A model generated the notes under the pieces. The model was not told the DNA's origin and made no database searches. It saw only the letters and a program-made list of their open reading frames with translations. The position numbers were made by a program, and so were the translations under genes. Positions 13,243 to 23,651 of a DNA stretch of 64,000 nt are shown here, piece by piece (the stretch's first letter is position 1; every line of letters starts with the position of its first letter). Source of the DNA: Akkermansia muciniphila (GTDB lineage: Bacteria > Verrucomicrobiota > Verrucomicrobiia > Verrucomicrobiales > DEV007); contig CAMCXS010000003.1 of NCBI GenBank assembly GCA_945883495.1, forward strand, positions 62,001-126,000. The letters are read 5' to 3'.

Positions 13243-15015
13243 ATGCCGATGAAACTCTTCGTTGCGATTACGTTCTTTTTCGTCGTGTTGATCCTCTCGA
13301 TCGTCACCTGCCAGAGACCTGATTTGCTGATCGAGTTGGCTAAGCTGGAAGGGGAGGCCAAGTCGATTCTGGAACATCCGGATCACCTAGGGATGTTTGA
13401 CGGGCTGTCGATCGAGACCAATCAACTCGATGTGATCGTGACTGGCACGGTGGACCGGGAAGTCCGGGACCGTGCCATCAAGCTTTTGCACTACGGTCAG
13501 GGAAGGCGGATTCCTGGGCTGCGGGCCGGCGTGATTGTCGACCGGGTGATGGTGGGGAATCCGGAACCGCCGGAATTGCAAGTGGAGGCGCGGGATCTGC
13601 TGTTGAGTTTCTCGGGGCGCATCCCGGAAGGGGATTTTCGGGACCGGTTGGTGGCGGTGGCCAAGGAGTTCCCTGTGACTCCGACATTGAGCTCGTTGAA
13701 GTCCAGCCGCGAGGTGGGTGGGGCGGAGTGGTTCGGAGACATGCCGGGTTTTGTCCGGAGGTTTTTGACTGGGGCGGAATCCGCCAGCCTGATCCTCAGC
13801 GCGGATCGCTTAATTCTGGACAGGATGGTGGCGGACGATCAGGCGCGAGACGAATTGATCAAGGCGGCTCATGCGATGGTGCCGGCGGGGATGACGGTGG
13901 ACGATACGCGACTGCGGGTGGCGCCGGGCTTGCAGATCCGCCGGGAAGGGGACGCCTGGACGGTCAGCGGGATGATGCCGGATGAGGCTTCCATGCTGTT
14001 CGTGCGGCAGACGCTGGAAGCCGCGGATCCCGCAAGTGCAGGGAAGAACGACTTTACGGGTTTATCGATCCGTCCCGGCATGGTGGCGCCGGTTTGGCTC
14101 AGGCGGCTGTCAGGTTTTCTTCCGACATTCGTGGCCGGCGTCCACTCTGGCGCGGAGTTGACGGTGACGGGCAGCGACGTGGTTCTGCGGGGGGACGTGA
14201 CGGATTTGGCGGTCGCTTCGCGGCTGGAGACGGCCGCGCAAAACACATTTGGCGCGACGATGGCGGTGGTCTCGCGGATGGTCAACGCCAACAATACGCT
14301 CCGGAGGCTCTCGTTCGATTTCGGGAAGGGTGGAGCGGACAAAATCATTGTGACGGGAGGCAGTCCAAGTTCGGAGGTATCGAAGATGATCGAAGACGCG
14401 GTGCGGCAGGCATTCCCCTCGCGACCGATCGATGCCAGTGGCTTGAAGATTGAAGCCGTCGCGCAATATGAGGACTGGGTGGACAAGCCGTTGGCGCGGT
14501 TTTTGTCTGAGTTTGCCCGACGGTCGCTGGGGGACGGCGTGTTGAAGCTGGAGGTCCGGGAAGCAAGTTTGCTGGGCACTGTACCCAACGAAATGACCCG
14601 GGATGCATTGGGGCTTTATTTGGGCTGGGCGCTTGGGGCGTCCTTTTCCGTCAATAACGTGTTGTCCGTGGAACTGAAAGCCAAAGTTCCGGCTCCTTAC
14701 GAGGGGGCCCAGGTGCTGTTTGCTGAAGGAAGCGCTTTGATCGGTCCGAAAGAGCAAACGAAAATCAATACGTTCGCCGCAAGGCTGACCCAAGGCGGTG
14801 AAGGGGTGGTGCTGTTGAAGGCTTTTTCGAGCAAATCGGGCACGCTGGCCGCGAATTTGGCGATCGGAGCCAAGCGGGCCGATGCGGTGCGGGCGGAATT
14901 GGTGCGGTTGGGGATTGCGGAGGATCGGATGCAAGTGCAGCCGACCGGTAAGCCCGGAAGTGGAGGGCGGGGCGATGCGAGCGACCGCCGGGTGGAACTA
15001 ATCATCCTAGAGTAG
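13243..15015 (+). CDS. BON- and OmpA-like domain envelope protein
   Basis: 590 residues. An uncleaved signal or anchor helix covers residues 4-22 (LFVAITFFFVVLILSIVTC), with a Cys at its end that is not a classical lipobox. The middle holds several BON-like units, seen as recurring strand-helix blocks of about 70 residues such as LDVIVTGTVDREVRDRAIKLL and ELTVTGSDVVLRGDVTDLAV. The C-terminal 110 residues are an OmpA/MotB-like domain: VLFAEGSALIGPKEQTKIN, then AIGAKRADAVRAELVRLGI, ending SDRRVELIILE, as in peptidoglycan-binding relatives. The layout recalls mycobacterial OmpATb/ArfA. It is followed after 8 bp by a small membrane protein gene and then the giant hairpin-repeat gene, almost certainly one operon. 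A second ATG lies at 13249. Confidence 0.8.
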   Translation: MPMKLFVAITFFFVVLILSIVTCQRPDLLIELAKLEGEAKSILEHPDHLGMFDGLSIETNQLDVIVTGTVDREVRDRAIKLLHYGQGRRIPGLRAGVIVDRVMVGNPEPPELQVEARDLLLSFSGRIPEGDFRDRLVAVAKEFPVTPTLSSLKSSREVGGAEWFGDMPGFVRRFLTGAESASLILSADRLILDRMVADDQARDELIKAAHAMVPAGMTVDDTRLRVAPGLQIRREGDAWTVSGMMPDEASMLFVRQTLEAADPASAGKNDFTGLSIRPGMVAPVWLRRLSGFLPTFVAGVHSGAELTVTGSDVVLRGDVTDLAVASRLETAAQNTFGATMAVVSRMVNANNTLRRLSFDFGKGGADKIIVTGGSPSSEVSKMIEDAVRQAFPSRPIDASGLKIEAVAQYEDWVDKPLARFLSEFARRSLGDGVLKLEVREASLLGTVPNEMTRDALGLYLGWALGASFSVNNVLSVELKAKVPAPYEGAQVLFAEGSALIGPKEQTKINTFAARLTQGGEGVVLLKAFSSKSGTLAANLAIGAKRADAVRAELVRLGIAEDRMQVQPTGKPGSGGRGDASDRRVELIILE

Positions 15016-15023
15016 GCAAGATC

Positions 15024-15224
15024 ATGAGCAGCAGCGTCTGGTATTACACCTTTCTGGCTTGGCTGAGCTACGGTTCGCTTTTTGCTGGGCTGGGGATGAT
15101 GATTGCCCGCGTGGTCTGGAGCGAAGACCAGCAACGAGTGCGCGAGATCGAACGAGAGAACGATCGGTTGCGTCAGGAACGATACGATTTGCAGCGAAAA
15201 CTGAGAACGGGGCGCGAGCTCTGA
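15024..15224 (+). CDS. Small membrane protein with C-terminal coiled coil
   Basis: 66 residues: a transmembrane helix at about 8-29 (TFLAWLSYGSLFAGLGMMIARV), then a highly charged heptad-like helix (IERENDRLRQERYDLQRKL). No named family is recognised. It lies 8 bp after the OmpA-like gene and 27 bp before the giant repeat gene. The giant protein begins with the same plan, one membrane helix followed by a short coiled coil, so the two could pair in the membrane. That pairing is inference from layout. Confidence 0.68.
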   Translation: MSSSVWYYTFLAWLSYGSLFAGLGMMIARVVWSEDQQRVREIERENDRLRQERYDLQRKLRTGREL

Positions 15225-15251: not shown

Positions 15252-18200
15252 ATGGTTCAGATGCTTAAGAATATCATCTTCCTCCTGGCGCCCGTGCCGT
15301 GGGTCTTCAAGCTCATGGCGGCGGCGATCTTCACGGGGCTCGGATTCTGGATGGGGTATCTCATTTGGAAAGTGACGGGCGTGGAAAACGAGCGACTGGT
15401 GAAACTGCAAAGTCGGCTTCGGGACGAAGTGGCGGCGTTGAAAGCAAAACTGGAGTCCAGGGGAAGCCAGGCGGCAGTCGCTCAGACCGAAGCGAAGTCC
15501 GGCAAGGCCGATGATTTGACTCGTTTGATTGGAATCACGGCGGAGATTGCGGCGAAGCTCAATGAATCAGGGATCCGGACCTATGAGCAGCTGGCGGAAC
15601 TAGAAGTTCTTTCCGAGCAGGAGCGGAGGCAGTTCGCCGCAACATTTGGCTTGCCCGAGATTAACTTGGATCGTTGGCGTTGGGCCTGGGCGGAGAAAGG
15701 GACCCAGTCCGCGGGGAACAACCCGCCCTCGGCGGCTCTGGAGCCGGTGGATGATCTTACCGCAATCCGCGGAATCACCCCGGAGTTGGCGAGTCGGATG
15801 AATCGCCAAGGCATTCGCCGGTTTGCCCAAATCGCGGCGTGGACAGAGGAAGACGCGCGCCAGTATTCGGTCCGGTTGGGGGTGGGGCGTCAGATCATTG
15901 ACGAGCGATGGGTGGAGCAATGCCGCCGGATTCTCAACTTGCCAGAGCCAGCCGTCGAGACCTTGGACCCGGCGATTCTGGATCAGCTGTTTGTCGGTGA
16001 ACCTGTGCGGTTGGACTCGCGTTTGGGCGTGGTGTATACCCGACGTCCCGAGTTGATGGATGACTTGCAACGCATCGACGGGGTGGGGCCAATGCTGGAA
16101 CAGGAGCTGCACCGCCTCGGCGTGTTCCGGTTCAAGCAGGTCGCGCTTTGGACCCCTGAGCAGGTCAAGGAGTTCGGAGCCAGGCTCAGCTGTTTCCCGG
16201 ACCGGATGGAGCGGGACAAGTTGGTCGAGCAGGCCCGTCTGCTGCACGAGGAGTTCTACAAGCGGGATACGGCGTGGGATGTGGCCGAGCCTCCCCCATT
16301 TGCCTACCAGCAAGTGATCGACGAGGTCTTTGTCCACGAGCCGGTGTCTCATACGCCGCCGTTTGGAATCGTTTACAACACGCCACCAGTGCAGGCGGAT
16401 GACCTTGGACGCATTGAGGGACTTACTCCGGGTGCGGTCGCGGAATTAGGGCGGCTGGGCGTTTACCGTTACCAGCAAATCGCCTACTGGTCGGAAGCGG
16501 ATGTCGCGGGAGTCGCTTCTTGGTTGAGCATTCCGGCGGACCGGATTTACCGGGAAAAGTGGATTCCGCAGGCGCGTCGACTGGCCGAGGCGCAGGAGCG
16601 CGTGGCTGGCCCATCCACCGCCACGCCCACCGATCAGCGCGGCTTGGAGGTGTTGCCGGATCCAGAGCCCGTGGCGATGTCGACTTTGCGATCGATGCCG
16701 CCGGTTGCGGCGAACACGTTGCAAGCATCGAATCCATCGAGCGATCCGACGTTTGAAATCGTGCGCGAACCAGAGCCGATCGCGAGCAACCCCGAGGGGG
16801 CGGAGCTGGATTTGGTGATGGGCTACGTGTTTCGCGCTGGGCGTCCGGGGTTGATTGACGATTTGAAGTTGATCCGTGGGGTCGGTCCAGCGGAAGAGTC
16901 GAAATTGCAGGCAGCAGGCATTTTCCGCTTTTGGCAAATCGCGGGATGGACTCCGTCGCAATCGACCGCCGTGGCGGAACGCTGTCATTTGGGCACGAGG
17001 ATCGACCGGGAGAAGTGGATTTGGCAGGCGAGCAAGCTGGCGATCCTTTCAGACGCTTCGCAGAAGGATTTCTACCGGGCGCGGACCGATGTCGATGCCT
17101 TCGCCGTGGTGGCCCAGGAGTTTGTTGGGGAAGAAGTCCGGTTGGATCGAGATCTGGGGATTCTTTATCCCGAGGCCCCGCTCGTAGTGGATAGCTTGAC
17201 CTTGATTCAAGGGGTGGATCCGGCCTTGGAGGTGGCCCTGCAGCAGTGCGGGATCTACCGGTTCAAGCAGGTCGGCGCCTGGAGCGACGGGAATGTGGGG
17301 GCGGTCGCGGCGCGCCTTGGCGTCGAGAAATCAAGGATCGAACGAGAGAAGTGGGTTTCGCAGGCGGTGAACCTGCAACGCGTGATTTACGCAGCGAGCC
17401 CGGTTTGGGCGGAGGACGAGCCTTCACTGGAAGGATACGGTTACCGGGCGGCGGAGGTCTTCACTGGGGAGCCAGTGCATCTCTCGGAGGACTTGGGAAT
17501 TCTGTATGCGAAGCGTCCGAGCCAAGTCGATGCCCTGTCAAAGATCCGCGGAGTTGACGATGCGTTGGAGGCTCGATTGCATGCCAGCGGAGTGTACCGA
17601 TTCCGTCAAATCGCGAATTGGTCCGCCCGCAACGTAGTTGCCTTTGCTGAATGGTTTGGCTGTCCTCCGGATCGTATTTATCGGGACCGCTGGATTGCGC
17701 AGGCGGCGGAATTGGACCGCACGCTGGTGCCAGAAGCTCCCGTCCCGGCTCCGGTTCAAGAGCCTAGCGAGCCGGAAGTGGATCCGTTTGAGATCTTGGC
17801 CAACTACTTCGCTGGGGAGGCGGACGTGCGAGTGGATCGACGGGCGGGCGTCGTTTATGGGGATCGGCCAGAGATCGTTGATGACTTGACCCTGATTTCC
17901 GGAGTCACACCGGAGTTGCAAGCCCAGTTGAATGAGACTGGGATCTACCGATTTAAGCAGATCAGGCACTGGAGCCCGCGCAACAGCCGTGAGGTGGCTG
18001 GGTTTGCCGGGATCGACCCCTACCGGGTGGGAGCCGAACAGTGGGTGGAACAGGCGGGGCGGCTGGAGAAAGAATTCTACTCCGCGAGCCCAACTTGGTC
18101 GATGCCGCGGCCTTCGCTGGCCGACTATGAGCGGAGAATGCACGAGGCCTACGCGGACGACGCCGTGGGCGCGGATGAGGAGTTGGGGATTCTTTATGCT

Positions 18201-21200
18201 GGGGTGCCGGCCTTGTATGATGACCTGAAGAAGGTCCATGGAATCAGTGAAGAACTAGAGGGGCGCTTAAACGCGACGGGCGTTTATCGTTACAAGCAAA
18301 TCGCCGATTGGGCCGACGCAAACGTGAAGGCCTTTGGGGCGTGGCTGGGAATCCCATCGCACCGCATTTACCAGCAACGCTGGATTGGGCAGGCTGCTCA
18401 GTTGGTCCACAGTCAGCCTTTGGTGCGTTTGGAGGCTAGGGCGCCGATCGTTCTGCATCCTTTGGCGGAAGTGCAGTTTGAGGCGCTGGCCCGGGAGTTT
18501 GGGGATGAGCCAGGGGCGCGCATCGATCGCCAGTTTGGCATTGTGTATGACGATGCACCGTTGATGCAGGATGATTTGAAGCGGTTGCCCGGAGTGACGG
18601 CGGGGATGGAGGAGGTGTTCCACCATCATGGAGTGTTCCGCTTCAAGCAGGTGGCCGCTTGGACGCCAGGGAATGAGGTGGAGTTCGCGCGGGTGCTCGG
18701 AATGTCGCCGGAGCAGTTTCGAGCGGCGCGCTGGCCGGAGCATGCCCGGGGAATGCACGAACAAACGTATCGTAGCAGCGGAGCGTGGACCGTGCGGCGA
18801 CCGGCTCTGGAGGCTTACCAACAGCGGATCGCGGAGCAATTCCCCAACGAGCCGGTTCGGGCGGACGAGGAGCTGGGCATTCTGTATGTGCGACGCCCGG
18901 TGATTGTTGATGATTTGACCCGGATTCAGGGGATCGAACCCGTTTCAGCGGCCCGTCTTCATGCTTCGGGGGTTTATCGGTTCAAGCAGGTGGCAAACTG
19001 GTCTGACACGAATGTCGAGACGTTCGCTCGCTGGATTGGCGTGCCGGTGGAGCGGGTTGCCCACGAGGATTGGGTGGGGCAGTCCGCGGAGCTAGCCAAA
19101 CAGGCTGCCGAGGTCAAGCCGCTCGTCGAGGTCACGGCCGATCCGTTGGCGACGCACTACGCCCAGGAGGCAGGAGTGAGCCGGCGGGAAGATCTGGGCC
19201 ATGTCTACCAGGAAGCTCCGAAGGTGCAGGATGATTTGACGCGGATTCACGGGATCGACAGTGATCTCGCACAAATCTTGCGCCGCAATGGCATTTACCG
19301 GTTTTGGCAAATCGCTCTTTGGTCCACGGACGTGGTGGACATCGTTTCCGGGACCCTGGACTTGGGTAACCGGATCAAGAGGGAGCGGTGGCGTCCGCAG
19401 GCGCGCGTCCTCGCGACTTTGGGATTTGCCGATGAAGAGGGGAGATTTGTGGCTGGGGAGGCCGATCACTTTGCAATCATCGAAAAAGAGTATACGGGAG
19501 AGAGCGGCGTCCGCGCGGATCCACGGTTCGGGATCGTTTATGACCAACGTCCCGTGGTGGTGGACGACCTGTGCAAGATCAGCGGGATCACGTTTGCGAT
19601 CGAAGAGGAGTTGCACCGGCACGGAGTCTACCGGTTCAAGCAAATCGGGCATTGGTCGGATGCGAACGTGGCGGCATTTGCGGAGGCGTGCGGATTGCGC
19701 AAGGAAGAAATCGAGACGGGAAAATGGATTCCGCAGGCGCGATGGCAGCATTTGCGGGTTTACGGCCAAGCCACCAAATGGGCTGAGCCCAAACCGTCGG
19801 TGGATCGCTTCGAGGAGTTGCTCGGTGAGTTGTTCCCAGGGGAAAGCGTCCGCGTGGATGAGAAGTTCGGCTTTGTGTATATCGGCCGGCCCCGGTACAG
19901 AGATGACTTGAGCCAGATCCGTGGCGTTACGGAGGCGTTGGCCCGCCGTTTGACCGCGAGTGGCATTCACAGTTTCCGCCAGGTGGCTTGGTGGTCGGAT
20001 GCGAACGTCCGCTCCATCGGCAAGAAGCTGGGCTTCCAGGCGGAACAAGTGTATCGCGGATCCTGGATCGCTCAGGCGGCCAAGCTGGACGAGGAACGGC
20101 CCGAAGAAGAGCCGGAGGTGGTCGCCGTCAGCGAGGATCCGGAAACCCCAGGTTTTGAGCACGGCTTGGTGACGCATCCTGAGTTGGGCTTGGTGTACAC
20201 CGAGCGACCGGCGATTATCGATGATCTGAAGGTCATCAGTGGCGTCGGGCCGAAGCTGGAGCGGATGCTCAATGGACTTGGCATCTACCGGTTCACGCAG
20301 GTGGCGAGTTGGGACGAGGCCCAGGTGGCGGCGGTTTCCTCCCGGATGCATTTCCGCGAGCGCATTCAGCGCGAACGCTGGGTGGAGCAGGCCAGGGAAT
20401 TGGCCGCTTGGCGCCAGGCGGAGCATCAGGAGAGTTTCTTCGCGCCAGCGCAGTTGGACCAAATTGCAATTGTTGAGCGCGAGTTGCACGACGAGCCGGG
20501 GGCGCGTGTCGATCCATACGTGGGAATTGTCTTCGATCAGGCTCCGCTGGTGGCGGACGATCTGACCGCGATCGATGGCATCGGCAAGCGGATGGAGCGA
20601 GAGCTTCAGGAAAGCGGGATCTACCGTTACGTGCAGCTCGCGAACTGGACGGACGGCAACGTGGCCCACATCGCGGAGAACCTGTCTTGCTTGAAGGACC
20701 GGATCGAACGGGACAAGTGGATTCCGCAGGCGCGCCGGTTGCACCGGGAGACCTACTCCGCGAGTCGGGCGTGGGGCGTGGAACGGCCCTCGTTGGCCGA
20801 TTACCAAGCACGCATCGAGGAAGAGTTTCCTGGGGAAGCGGTGCGTCCGGACGGCGAGCTTGGCATCCTGTACTCCGGATGGCCGAGCCACGTGGATGAT
20901 CTCAAGGAGATCTCCGGCGTGGACGTGAAGTTGGAGCGGGCCCTCAATCAGATGGGGGTTTACTGCGTGAAACAGATCGCCAACTGGTCGGTGGCCAACG
21001 TCGATGCCTTTGCCAAGCAATTGGGGACCTCGCCGCAACGGATTTACCGGGACCGATGGATCTTGCAGGCGTCGAATCTGCCGTGCAAGGAACCGCTGCC
21101 GGTGCAGCCGGTGTATGAAGGGGTCGACATTGACTTGCGACGGGTGCTCTCGGTTCAGCCTGGGCTTGAGCCGGATGAACGGCTCGGTTTTGTCTACACG

Positions 21201-23651
21201 GAGCGGCCGGTGGATGTCGATGCGTTGCATCTGATCAAGGGCTTGGGCTATCGCTTGGAGCAGCAGATCAACAAGCTGGGGGTCTATCGTTTCCGGCAAA
21301 TCGCGAGTTGGTCGGATCCTCAGGTGGAGGAGTTTGGAAGTCGTCTGAAGATCGGGAATCGGATTCGCTCTGCAAATTGGGTGGGACAAGCCCGGGAATG
21401 GGCGGCGCTGAGCGAGGAGGAACGGAGATTTTCGTTCGTGGCCCCCTCGGTGGTGGATCAGGACGCGGCCTTGGAGATCGAGTTCTCCGGGGATGCGGGC
21501 GTGCGGATCGATGAGTTCCTAGGAATCGTTTATGATCGGGTGCCGCCGGTATTGGATGACCTGAACTTGATCAACGGGATCGGGGCCCAAATGGAGCGGG
21601 AGCTGAACGAACTGGGGGTCTACCGGTTCAAGCAAATCGCCCGCTGGTCGGATGCGAACGTCGCGGAATTTGCGCGTCGGCTCTTCTGCCAAAAAGAGCG
21701 GATTGAGCGGGACAAGTGGATCCCACAGGCCAAGCGACTTCTCAAAGTGGTGTATGCGGCTTCCCTGGAATGGGGCGTGAGCAGGCCCGGCGTCGATGAA
21801 CTGGACGGTGTCATCCGCGCGGAGTTCAGCGGGCAGCGTGTCCGGGCGGATAAAGATCACGGCATCGTCTACACGGAACGCCCCTCACGCGGGGATGACC
21901 TCAAGGAAATCCCGGGGATCAGTAGCAAGATCGAGCAGGATCTCAATGCTGCTGGGGTATGGAGATTTCTTCAAATTGCTCGCTGGGCGCCGAGTCATGT
22001 CGAGTCATTCGCCGGGCGCCTGCAAATTCCGGCGGACCGGATTTATCGCGACCGGTGGATACCGAATGCGCAGCAGTTGGCGGGATCGGCCCCGGCCCCG
22101 GCTCCAGTTGCAGCTGCGGCTCCGGCACCCGCTCCCACTCCTGTCCCGGTTGTCCCCGCTTCCGTGAGTGTCGTCGAGAAGCCAGTGGCCCCGGTGGCAC
22201 CGAGTCGAGCGGCAGCGCCTTCGGTCGTGGCCGCTGAACCGGCTGTGGTGGCTCCGCCCGTCTCAGAGCGCGCGACGAATGGAAACGGCAGCAAGGGGCC
22301 GGTTCGGTCTGGTCATGGAGAGACGCGGGGGAGCGTGCTCGATCCGGCGTTGGTAATTGATCCTGACCTTGGTCCGGTGTATCGCGACCGGCCCTCGAAG
22401 ATTGACGATTTGCAGCTCATCGTTGGCGTGGGCCCGGTTTTGGAGCGGCGCCTGCACGCTTGTGGGGTGTATCGCTACCGCCAGATCGCGGACTGGACGC
22501 CTGAGAACGTGGAGAATTACGCGCTGCGCCTCGATGTGGGCGAGCGAATTCAGCGTGAGGAGTGGGTGAAGCAATCCGTGGAACTCGCGGAGTTGGTCGA
22601 GGCCGAAGAGTCCGACGAACTCTTCGTGGCGCCCGCCTGGGTGGATTATAACGCGGTCGTGCGGCAGCACTTTGCCGGGGAAACGGGCCTTCGGGTGGAT
22701 AATCGCTGGGGCATTGTCTACGATCAGAAGCCGGATTGGTTGGATGACCTGAAACAGATTGATGGGATCGGGCCCAAGCTGGAGCGGGTTTTGAACCGGC
22801 ATGGCGTGTACCAGTTCCGGCAGATCTCGCATTGGTCGGACGCGACGGTCTCGGTCTTCGCGGAGGCTCTCGGAGTGTCCAAGGATCGGATCGATCGCGG
22901 GAAATGGGTGCCGCAAGCGCGGCGATTGGAACGGGAGACGGCTCCGGTGGAAACGGAGTGGGGGGATCGCCAGCCGGGGCTCGCGGAATTACAGGAGCGC
23001 GCCGCTCGGGAGTTTACCGGAGAAGACATCGAAGTGGATGAAAGCTATGGGATCGTCTACGTGATCCGGCCGGATGAGGTGGACAACATCAAGCTGGTCA
23101 AAGGCATCGGAGCTACGTTCGCGGAACGATTGCACAGCGTGGGCGTGTATCGCTTCAAGCAGATTGCCCTCTGGGGCGATGGGAACGTCGAAGCATTTGC
23201 CCGCCTCTTGGGCACGCACCGGCACCGGATTTACCGGGAAGGCTGGATCCGCCAGGCGCGGGAGATGGCCAGCGCGAACGCGAGCGGGCCGCGGCGAGCG
23301 GAGCCCGCTCCAGTTGAGCGACCTTTCCGCGGCGAGAGCCGCTTGGAAGATGTGCTGCGCCGTGACTTGCGGGGTGAAGATGCGGTGGTGAATCCCGAGC
23401 TAGGGATCATTTTCCGGACGCCGCCGCGGGAGGTGGATGACCTCAAGAAGATCCGCGGGATCGGCCAGAAACTAGAGAACAGTCTCAACGACCACGGCGT
23501 TTACCAGTTCCGGCAAATCGCGCTTTGGAGCCGGGCCAATGCCGAGGAGTTTTCCCGGCGGTTGGAGTGCTTCGCGGATCGTATGTTCCGGGACCAATGG
23601 ATCGAACAAGCACGTCGCCTGCACTTCGATAAGTATGGGTTGGAAGTTTGA
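15252..23651 (+). CDS. Giant membrane-anchored protein with 24 helix-hairpin-helix (H3TH-like) repeats
   Basis: About 2799 residues. A membrane helix lies at 21-39 (LMAAAIFTGLGFWMGYLIW) and a short coiled coil at about 46-70. Then come 24 units with the core DDLxxIxGIxxxLExxL, GVYRFKQIAxWS and RIxRDxWIxQAxxL. This core matches the flap-endonuclease-like hairpin (COG3743) found singly as a C-terminal extension on some NuoE and L21 proteins. Each unit is introduced by a strand-like G-(I/V)-(V/L)-Y-xx-RP element. The hairpin DNA-binding signature GIGP is kept in only some units. A Pro/Ala-rich linker lies between units 20 and 21. I start at ATG 15252; an upstream in-frame TTG at 15234 is less likely. 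Membrane orientation is unclear. Function is unknown, but the operon with a BON/OmpA protein suggests an envelope scaffold. Confidence 0.85.
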   Translation: MVQMLKNIIFLLAPVPWVFKLMAAAIFTGLGFWMGYLIWKVTGVENERLVKLQSRLRDEVAALKAKLESRGSQAAVAQTEAKSGKADDLTRLIGITAEIAAKLNESGIRTYEQLAELEVLSEQERRQFAATFGLPEINLDRWRWAWAEKGTQSAGNNPPSAALEPVDDLTAIRGITPELASRMNRQGIRRFAQIAAWTEEDARQYSVRLGVGRQIIDERWVEQCRRILNLPEPAVETLDPAILDQLFVGEPVRLDSRLGVVYTRRPELMDDLQRIDGVGPMLEQELHRLGVFRFKQVALWTPEQVKEFGARLSCFPDRMERDKLVEQARLLHEEFYKRDTAWDVAEPPPFAYQQVIDEVFVHEPVSHTPPFGIVYNTPPVQADDLGRIEGLTPGAVAELGRLGVYRYQQIAYWSEADVAGVASWLSIPADRIYREKWIPQARRLAEAQERVAGPSTATPTDQRGLEVLPDPEPVAMSTLRSMPPVAANTLQASNPSSDPTFEIVREPEPIASNPEGAELDLVMGYVFRAGRPGLIDDLKLIRGVGPAEESKLQAAGIFRFWQIAGWTPSQSTAVAERCHLGTRIDREKWIWQASKLAILSDASQKDFYRARTDVDAFAVVAQEFVGEEVRLDRDLGILYPEAPLVVDSLTLIQGVDPALEVALQQCGIYRFKQVGAWSDGNVGAVAARLGVEKSRIEREKWVSQAVNLQRVIYAASPVWAEDEPSLEGYGYRAAEVFTGEPVHLSEDLGILYAKRPSQVDALSKIRGVDDALEARLHASGVYRFRQIANWSARNVVAFAEWFGCPPDRIYRDRWIAQAAELDRTLVPEAPVPAPVQEPSEPEVDPFEILANYFAGEADVRVDRRAGVVYGDRPEIVDDLTLISGVTPELQAQLNETGIYRFKQIRHWSPRNSREVAGFAGIDPYRVGAEQWVEQAGRLEKEFYSASPTWSMPRPSLADYERRMHEAYADDAVGADEELGILYAGVPALYDDLKKVHGISEELEGRLNATGVYRYKQIADWADANVKAFGAWLGIPSHRIYQQRWIGQAAQLVHSQPLVRLEARAPIVLHPLAEVQFEALAREFGDEPGARIDRQFGIVYDDAPLMQDDLKRLPGVTAGMEEVFHHHGVFRFKQVAAWTPGNEVEFARVLGMSPEQFRAARWPEHARGMHEQTYRSSGAWTVRRPALEAYQQRIAEQFPNEPVRADEELGILYVRRPVIVDDLTRIQGIEPVSAARLHASGVYRFKQVANWSDTNVETFARWIGVPVERVAHEDWVGQSAELAKQAAEVKPLVEVTADPLATHYAQEAGVSRREDLGHVYQEAPKVQDDLTRIHGIDSDLAQILRRNGIYRFWQIALWSTDVVDIVSGTLDLGNRIKRERWRPQARVLATLGFADEEGRFVAGEADHFAIIEKEYTGESGVRADPRFGIVYDQRPVVVDDLCKISGITFAIEEELHRHGVYRFKQIGHWSDANVAAFAEACGLRKEEIETGKWIPQARWQHLRVYGQATKWAEPKPSVDRFEELLGELFPGESVRVDEKFGFVYIGRPRYRDDLSQIRGVTEALARRLTASGIHSFRQVAWWSDANVRSIGKKLGFQAEQVYRGSWIAQAAKLDEERPEEEPEVVAVSEDPETPGFEHGLVTHPELGLVYTERPAIIDDLKVISGVGPKLERMLNGLGIYRFTQVASWDEAQVAAVSSRMHFRERIQRERWVEQARELAAWRQAEHQESFFAPAQLDQIAIVERELHDEPGARVDPYVGIVFDQAPLVADDLTAIDGIGKRMERELQESGIYRYVQLANWTDGNVAHIAENLSCLKDRIERDKWIPQARRLHRETYSASRAWGVERPSLADYQARIEEEFPGEAVRPDGELGILYSGWPSHVDDLKEISGVDVKLERALNQMGVYCVKQIANWSVANVDAFAKQLGTSPQRIYRDRWILQASNLPCKEPLPVQPVYEGVDIDLRRVLSVQPGLEPDERLGFVYTERPVDVDALHLIKGLGYRLEQQINKLGVYRFRQIASWSDPQVEEFGSRLKIGNRIRSANWVGQAREWAALSEEERRFSFVAPSVVDQDAALEIEFSGDAGVRIDEFLGIVYDRVPPVLDDLNLINGIGAQMERELNELGVYRFKQIARWSDANVAEFARRLFCQKERIERDKWIPQAKRLLKVVYAASLEWGVSRPGVDELDGVIRAEFSGQRVRADKDHGIVYTERPSRGDDLKEIPGISSKIEQDLNAAGVWRFLQIARWAPSHVESFAGRLQIPADRIYRDRWIPNAQQLAGSAPAPAPVAAAAPAPAPTPVPVVPASVSVVEKPVAPVAPSRAAAPSVVAAEPAVVAPPVSERATNGNGSKGPVRSGHGETRGSVLDPALVIDPDLGPVYRDRPSKIDDLQLIVGVGPVLERRLHACGVYRYRQIADWTPENVENYALRLDVGERIQREEWVKQSVELAELVEAEESDELFVAPAWVDYNAVVRQHFAGETGLRVDNRWGIVYDQKPDWLDDLKQIDGIGPKLERVLNRHGVYQFRQISHWSDATVSVFAEALGVSKDRIDRGKWVPQARRLERETAPVETEWGDRQPGLAELQERAAREFTGEDIEVDESYGIVYVIRPDEVDNIKLVKGIGATFAERLHSVGVYRFKQIALWGDGNVEAFARLLGTHRHRIYREGWIRQAREMASANASGPRRAEPAPVERPFRGESRLEDVLRRDLRGEDAVVNPELGIIFRTPPREVDDLKKIRGIGQKLENSLNDHGVYQFRQIALWSRANAEEFSRRLECFADRMFRDQWIEQARRLHFDKYGLEV
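15510..23620 (+). repeat. 24 protein-level tandem repeats of about 340 bp in the giant gene
   Basis: The first codon of each DDL-like core lies at 15510, 15750, 16059, 16398, 16857, 17190, 17529, 17880, 18219, 18570, 18909, 19230, 19563, 19902, 20220, 20556, 20895, 21219, 21555, 21894, 22404, 22743, 23082 and 23436. Mean spacing is about 345 bp. The copies are diverged at DNA level but strongly alike as protein. Three unit types (A, B, C) recur. Every B-to-C step (16059-16398, 17190-17529, 17880-18219, 18570-18909, 19563-19902, 20556-20895, 21555-21894, 22743-23082) is exactly 339 bp. Steps out of C units vary most, from 318 to 510 bp, because linkers sit there. Confidence 0.9.

Follow-up and report, generated by a model that had tools for sequence, protein, structure and literature searches.

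Helix-hairpin-helix (HHH) domains of the COG3743/H3TH-like type are found as tails of NuoE, L21, S2, and the phasin PhaH, and such tails on ribosomal proteins, complex I, phasins, and a photosynthetic reaction center mostly have no assigned role. OmpATb/ArfA (Rv0899) of Mycobacterium combines a BON-type domain with an OmpA domain, and its gene shares an operon with those of two small membrane proteins. In the RC-LH1 complex of Dinoroseobacter shibae, protein-O (PDB 8yy9_O) has an N-terminal membrane segment and a C-terminal HHH domain, to which no function is assigned and which is not resolved in the structure (PMC12079452). The longest HhH array found in the literature covered is that of topoisomerase V of Methanopyrus, with 12 (HhH)2 domains in tandem (PMC9489208). 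Finally, the acidic repeats of NusA have an HhH fold with acidic, non-GhG hairpins (GhG being the hairpin of DNA-binding HhH motifs).

The locus studied here lies in the window, the whole 64,000-nucleotide stretch of DNA that was analyzed, and is made of known kinds of parts, an HHH domain and a BON-OmpA partner. However, the arrangement differs from each of the systems above. The COG3743/H3TH-type tails share the domain by profile and PDB sequence matches but carry it once, normally at the C terminus according to NCBIfam, in agreement with the earlier note on this DNA, which had it as usually occurring once, as an extension of, e.g., NuoE or L21. The array protein, in contrast, is anchored in the membrane and has 24 copies with conserved beta-hairpin linkers. 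Protein-O has a two-helix membrane part and one HHH domain and is bound to a photosynthetic complex; its gene lies between nuoE and nuoF. Topoisomerase V is a DNA-wrapping enzyme with a catalytic domain, whereas the array has 24 domains, is membrane-anchored, and is acidic. NusA, which matches weakly in sequence and fold, is a soluble transcription factor and has only two repeats. Compared to OmpATb/ArfA, the partner in the window has about seven BON-like modules and an operon mate that carries HHH units. The literature covered, mainly open-access papers, contained no description of an HHH plus BON-OmpA operon or of a membrane-anchored HHH array of such size. The features are as follows (HHH units by motif scan and profile HMM, and units 15 to 17 also by model).

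13243..15015, +, OmpA/BON partner (590 aa) with a membrane helix at the N terminus, about seven BON-like modules, and an OmpA domain at the C terminus (Pfam, NCBIfam, model, Foldseek)
15024..15224, +, 66-aa membrane protein with a single helix and a charged coiled-coil-like tail after it; starts 8 nt past the OmpA stop
15252..23651, +, giant membrane-anchored HHH array protein, 2,799 aa; begins 27 nt past the 66-aa gene (sequence)
15312..15374, +, membrane helix, residues ~21 to 41 (sequence; hydropathy of ortholog)
15384..15467, +, heptad-like (coiled-coil-like) stretch, residues ~45 to 72 (sequence, by eye)
15510..15683, +, HHH unit 1
15750..15923, +, HHH unit 2
16059..16232, +, HHH unit 3
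16398..16571, +, HHH unit 4
16857..17030, +, HHH unit 5
17190..17363, +, HHH unit 6
17529..17702, +, HHH unit 7
17880..18053, +, HHH unit 8
18219..18392, +, HHH unit 9
18570..18743, +, HHH unit 10
18909..19082, +, HHH unit 11
19230..19403, +, HHH unit 12
19563..19736, +, HHH unit 13
19902..20075, +, HHH unit 14
20220..20393, +, HHH unit 15, inside the AlphaFold module (20085-21086)
20556..20729, +, HHH unit 16, inside the same module
20895..21068, +, HHH unit 17, inside the same module
21219..21392, +, HHH unit 18
21555..21728, +, HHH unit 19
21894..22067, +, HHH unit 20
22404..22577, +, HHH unit 21, preceded by a 112-aa Ala/Pro-rich linker
22743..22916, +, HHH unit 22
23082..23255, +, HHH unit 23
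23436..23609, +, HHH unit 24

The earlier note had described one frame of about 2,800 residues with an N-terminal membrane helix, a short coiled coil, and 24 hairpin copies, next to an OmpA-like gene, and each of these elements was recovered. The open frame runs from the ATG at 15252 to the TGA at 23651, with a TTG 18 nt upstream of the ATG as an alternative opening, and encodes the membrane helix, the heptad-like stretch, and then exactly 24 HHH units. Pfam HHH_5 matched the protein at E 7e-41, and the NCBIfam models NF009040, NF008915, NF045508, and NF008966, built for known carriers of a single such domain, each matched 23 to 24 stretches of it; together with the PDB sequence matches and the model, this agrees with the H3TH-like COG3743 type that the note had named. 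The array gene comes third in its operon, after the OmpA/BON and 66-aa genes, and is followed on its 3′ side by rpmE, prfA, prmC, and murA. Promoter and terminator signals at the locus were not above those of shuffled sequences. The host genome is 6.46 Mb in 206 contigs, and the contig extends beyond the array gene on both sides.

The repeat itself is longer than the hairpin motif that the note had given. The linkers between most HHH units carry the conserved motif F.GE.VR.DE.LGIVY..RP (core VRxDExLGIVYxxRP), and the true repeat unit is therefore about 113 aa. Units recur as A-B-C triplets, with units 5 to 7, 12 to 14, 15 to 17, 18 to 20, and 21 to 23 aligning end to end, and this order is interrupted by two-unit steps at units 8-9 and 10-11. 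An AlphaFold2 model of units 15 to 17 (20085-21086), built on 22 sequences from the window and related loci, had a mean pLDDT of 88 and a pTM of 0.77. In this model, each HHH part forms about five helices, an all-helical HhH fold, and each linker folds into a beta-hairpin of two strands, so that hairpins and HHH domains are packed in series. A VIA-align comparison returned the NusA acidic repeats, RadA, and the HhH domains of DNA polymerase iota at Z 5 to 7, middling values that support only the general HhH fold. A Foldseek search of the three-unit module against the PDB gave no match under E 0.001.

The array is ordered and old within its genus. The sister genome REEB427 (G002, L029/L047) also has 24 units, and for 23 of the 24 window units the best match was the unit of the same number in REEB427. 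A second sister contig (G001, L028/L046) begins inside the array and has 19 units in register. Since the units are colinear orthologs, a homogenizing or recombining repeat was ruled out. The earlier note had allowed that the array might be an assembly artifact; this was ruled out by the matching units of the sister and by the low internal identity (longest exact internal repeat, 22 nt; ungapped DNA identity between any two HHH blocks, at most 66%), and collapse or expansion of the array in assembly is unlikely. The dN/dS ratio of the array gene against two sister genomes was ~0.14 to 0.18, and that of all three operon genes was 0.14 to 0.19, with dS partly saturated in both cases. Judged by these ratios, the array units are under purifying selection, and together with the 24 units of the sister they speak against a frame that is open by chance.

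At least one HHH unit was found in 58 of 75 genomes of the family, but at E 1e-10 in only 7 of 289 genomes of a phylum-wide sample. Proteins with at least 20 units were confined to the genus of the window in the data examined, and intermediate arrays of 10 to 12 units were found outside it (L031, L033, and L057); across the membrane-HHH loci, the unit number ranged from 1 to 24. The named relatives are Verrucomicrobia/Verrucomicrobiales, mostly metagenome-assembled genomes. A plasmid-borne trait was rejected, as tblastn searches of plasmids returned only alphaproteobacterial HHH matches.

The partnership with an OmpA gene recurs. Loci were retrieved by the HHH domain only, and not by the partner genes, and an OmpA-domain gene lay directly upstream of the membrane-HHH gene at 16 of them. 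Ten have the three-gene form (the window, L047, L032, L033, L052, L057, L063, L065, L066, and L069), with a middle ORF of 66 to 87 aa in which a single hydrophobic helix precedes basic and charged residues. The other six have OmpA and membrane-HHH genes only, nearly abutting or overlapping (L027, L037, L041, L042, L095, and L070). Among these, L027:1526-4690 is a second pair in the window's own genome (contig C22), with a one-unit HHH protein, and L070:6010-8672 is an OmpA/BON plus two-unit pair, 11 nt apart, on plasmid p_1 of Rhizobium lusitanum, an alphaproteobacterium and hence of another phylum; the BON and OmpA domains of its OmpA protein score above the Pfam cut-offs. In Rubritalea (L066:4097-10225), the third gene encodes a 2,042-aa, mostly coiled-coil-like protein with one terminal HHH unit, so length appears to be reached there by coil instead of units. 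No OmpA partner was found in the locus sequence examined for the HHH membrane proteins of L025, L030, L031, L038, L039, and L048 to L050, or for a further group whose helix is followed by an acidic segment. At L045:5821-6993, the small gene and a gene with one HHH unit are found close to rpmE, an arrangement shared with the window, but the OmpA gene is absent. The window's own genome also encodes large BON/OmpA proteins at G000:C54:24291-26864 and G000:C44:22245-24542 (L094:2291-4864 and L093:2246-4543), with no HHH gene found alongside.

In the AlphaFold model of the OmpA/BON partner, a membrane helix is followed by about seven BON-like modules and then the OmpA domain (mean pLDDT, 74; pTM, 0.39); because of the low pTM, the arrangement of the modules is not reliable. 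Its top Foldseek matches in the PDB were 2kgs, the OmpATb BON domain (TM 0.73 by target length), and 2l26, and Pal/MotB/OmpA domains were also among the best matches. Its NF051434 score was 60.1 bits, below the curated cut-off of 81 bits. The conserved peptidoglycan-pocket residues of OmpA domains are the Asp of the ..D..G motif and an Arg. The Arg (Arg545) is invariant; the Asp is present in most relatives and is Ser in the genus of the window. The partner thus lacks the full pair, and its wall binding may be weak.

Of 13 array proteins with a partner, 12 have more Lys and Arg in the 15 residues after the membrane helix than before it, and one is a tie; the small one-helix proteins showed the same bias by eye. 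By the positive-inside rule, this bias predicts that the array faces the cytoplasm and the OmpA/BON part the periplasm, as the family of the latter also suggests.

The explanation that we favor, at a probability of about 45%, is a docking scaffold for proteins that is linked to the envelope and faces the cytoplasm. The OmpA/BON protein would be anchored in the inner membrane and would expose its BON modules and OmpA domain to the periplasm, close to or at the peptidoglycan. The 66-aa and array proteins would both be single-pass proteins of the inner membrane with cytoplasmic tails, and would probably pair through their similar membrane helices and heptad-like segments. With 24 folded beta-hairpin and HHH units, distinct and kept in order, the array would act as an extended, multivalent platform to which cytoplasmic partners (proteins or complexes more likely than DNA) bind and are thereby kept at the envelope. 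Support comes from the OmpA partnership, the OmpATb/Pal/MotB-type folds of the partner, the Lys/Arg bias, and the colinear units under purifying selection. Against it count the Ser in the OmpA pocket, the reported DNA binding by PhaH, and the multi-unit loci without OmpA (L025, L030, L031, L038, and L039). The earlier note had proposed a scaffold or fiber rather than a DNA enzyme. A scaffold or fiber would fit; the enzyme was rejected, since Pfam and NCBIfam showed no catalytic or other enzyme domain in the array protein, and polymerization found no support. The folded linkers, the predicted cytoplasmic position of the array, the conservation of individual units, and the DNA binding reported for PhaH were not part of that note.

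The main rival, which we consider unlikely, is that units with good hairpins would bind DNA nonspecifically and thereby tie the chromosome to the wall through the OmpA/BON protein. It owes its standing to PhaH, the best-studied carrier of the domain: according to a review (PMC13052382), this Caulobacter phasin binds DNA nonspecifically through its HHH domain and places PHB granules on the nucleoid. The PhaH model matched all 24 units, via the HHH part only; the array protein falls outside the PhaH family as defined by the N-terminal phasin region and a curated 250 bits from one protein match, with no single array match above 53 bits and the best match in the genome (62 bits) at an L22 extension. 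Likewise, a COG3743 domain is found in one Halomonas PhaC2 protein and a histone-like domain in another (PMC8686332), only some of the 12 domains of topoisomerase V contact the DNA that it wraps (PMC9489208), and units 14, 18, and 23 carry a net positive charge (+3 to +5). However, GhG is not kept throughout the units. It is present in 10 of 24 in the window and missing from 14, and units without it carry G[IVL][TDSE] hairpins, as in the NusA repeats; the sister array has it in 9 of 24, and partnered arrays of other genera in 5 of 12, 1 of 10, and 0 of 9. The array protein has a net charge of about −72, and partnered arrays of relatives are more acidic (L057, −187 with GhG in 5 of 12; L032, −276 with GhG in 0 of 9). 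GhG is likewise absent from most partnered proteins of the order that have a single unit. As only 10 of the 24 units keep GhG and the array carries a net negative charge, protein ligands, and with them the docking scaffold, are favored over the nucleoid tether.

Improbable is a self-associating, cytoskeleton-like fiber, in which HHH units would bind between molecules to form a sheet or fiber under the inner membrane; the very long regular repeat, folded linkers, triplet order, and coiled-coil-like stretch would suit it, but many relatives' operons have between one and three units, not enough for a fiber. A docking site for HHH-tailed complexes (here the L22 extension; elsewhere NuoE, L21, S2, and PhaH) is very improbable, as HHH-HHH binding is not known, even though large complexes repeatedly carry the domain as a tail, as in protein-O (PMC12079452), and the window's own genome encodes such an L22. 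A PHB-granule tether may be a further reading, with a partial PhaC_N match in all three genomes of the genus.

More broadly, it is conceivable, with the odds somewhat against it, that these loci represent an undescribed trans-envelope system in two phyla, in which a periplasmic BON/OmpA anchor, a small membrane coiled-coil protein, and a cytoplasmic HHH array, with 1 to 24 units that are each conserved, would fasten the nucleoid or large cytoplasmic complexes to the wall. An operon with up to 24 HHH copies on a putative wall-linked anchor would give a genetic handle on the binding partner of this domain, and it suggests a bacterial way to organize the cytoplasm or chromosome from the envelope.

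Two other genes of the window's own genome touch on these families. An L22 ribosomal protein extended at its C terminus by an HHH domain is encoded at L026:4240-4905 (contig C34) and also occurs at L044, L096, and L097. A partial PhaC_N match lies in a 374-aa frame (G000:C50:10606-10782), a possible PHA synthase found in all three genomes of the genus.
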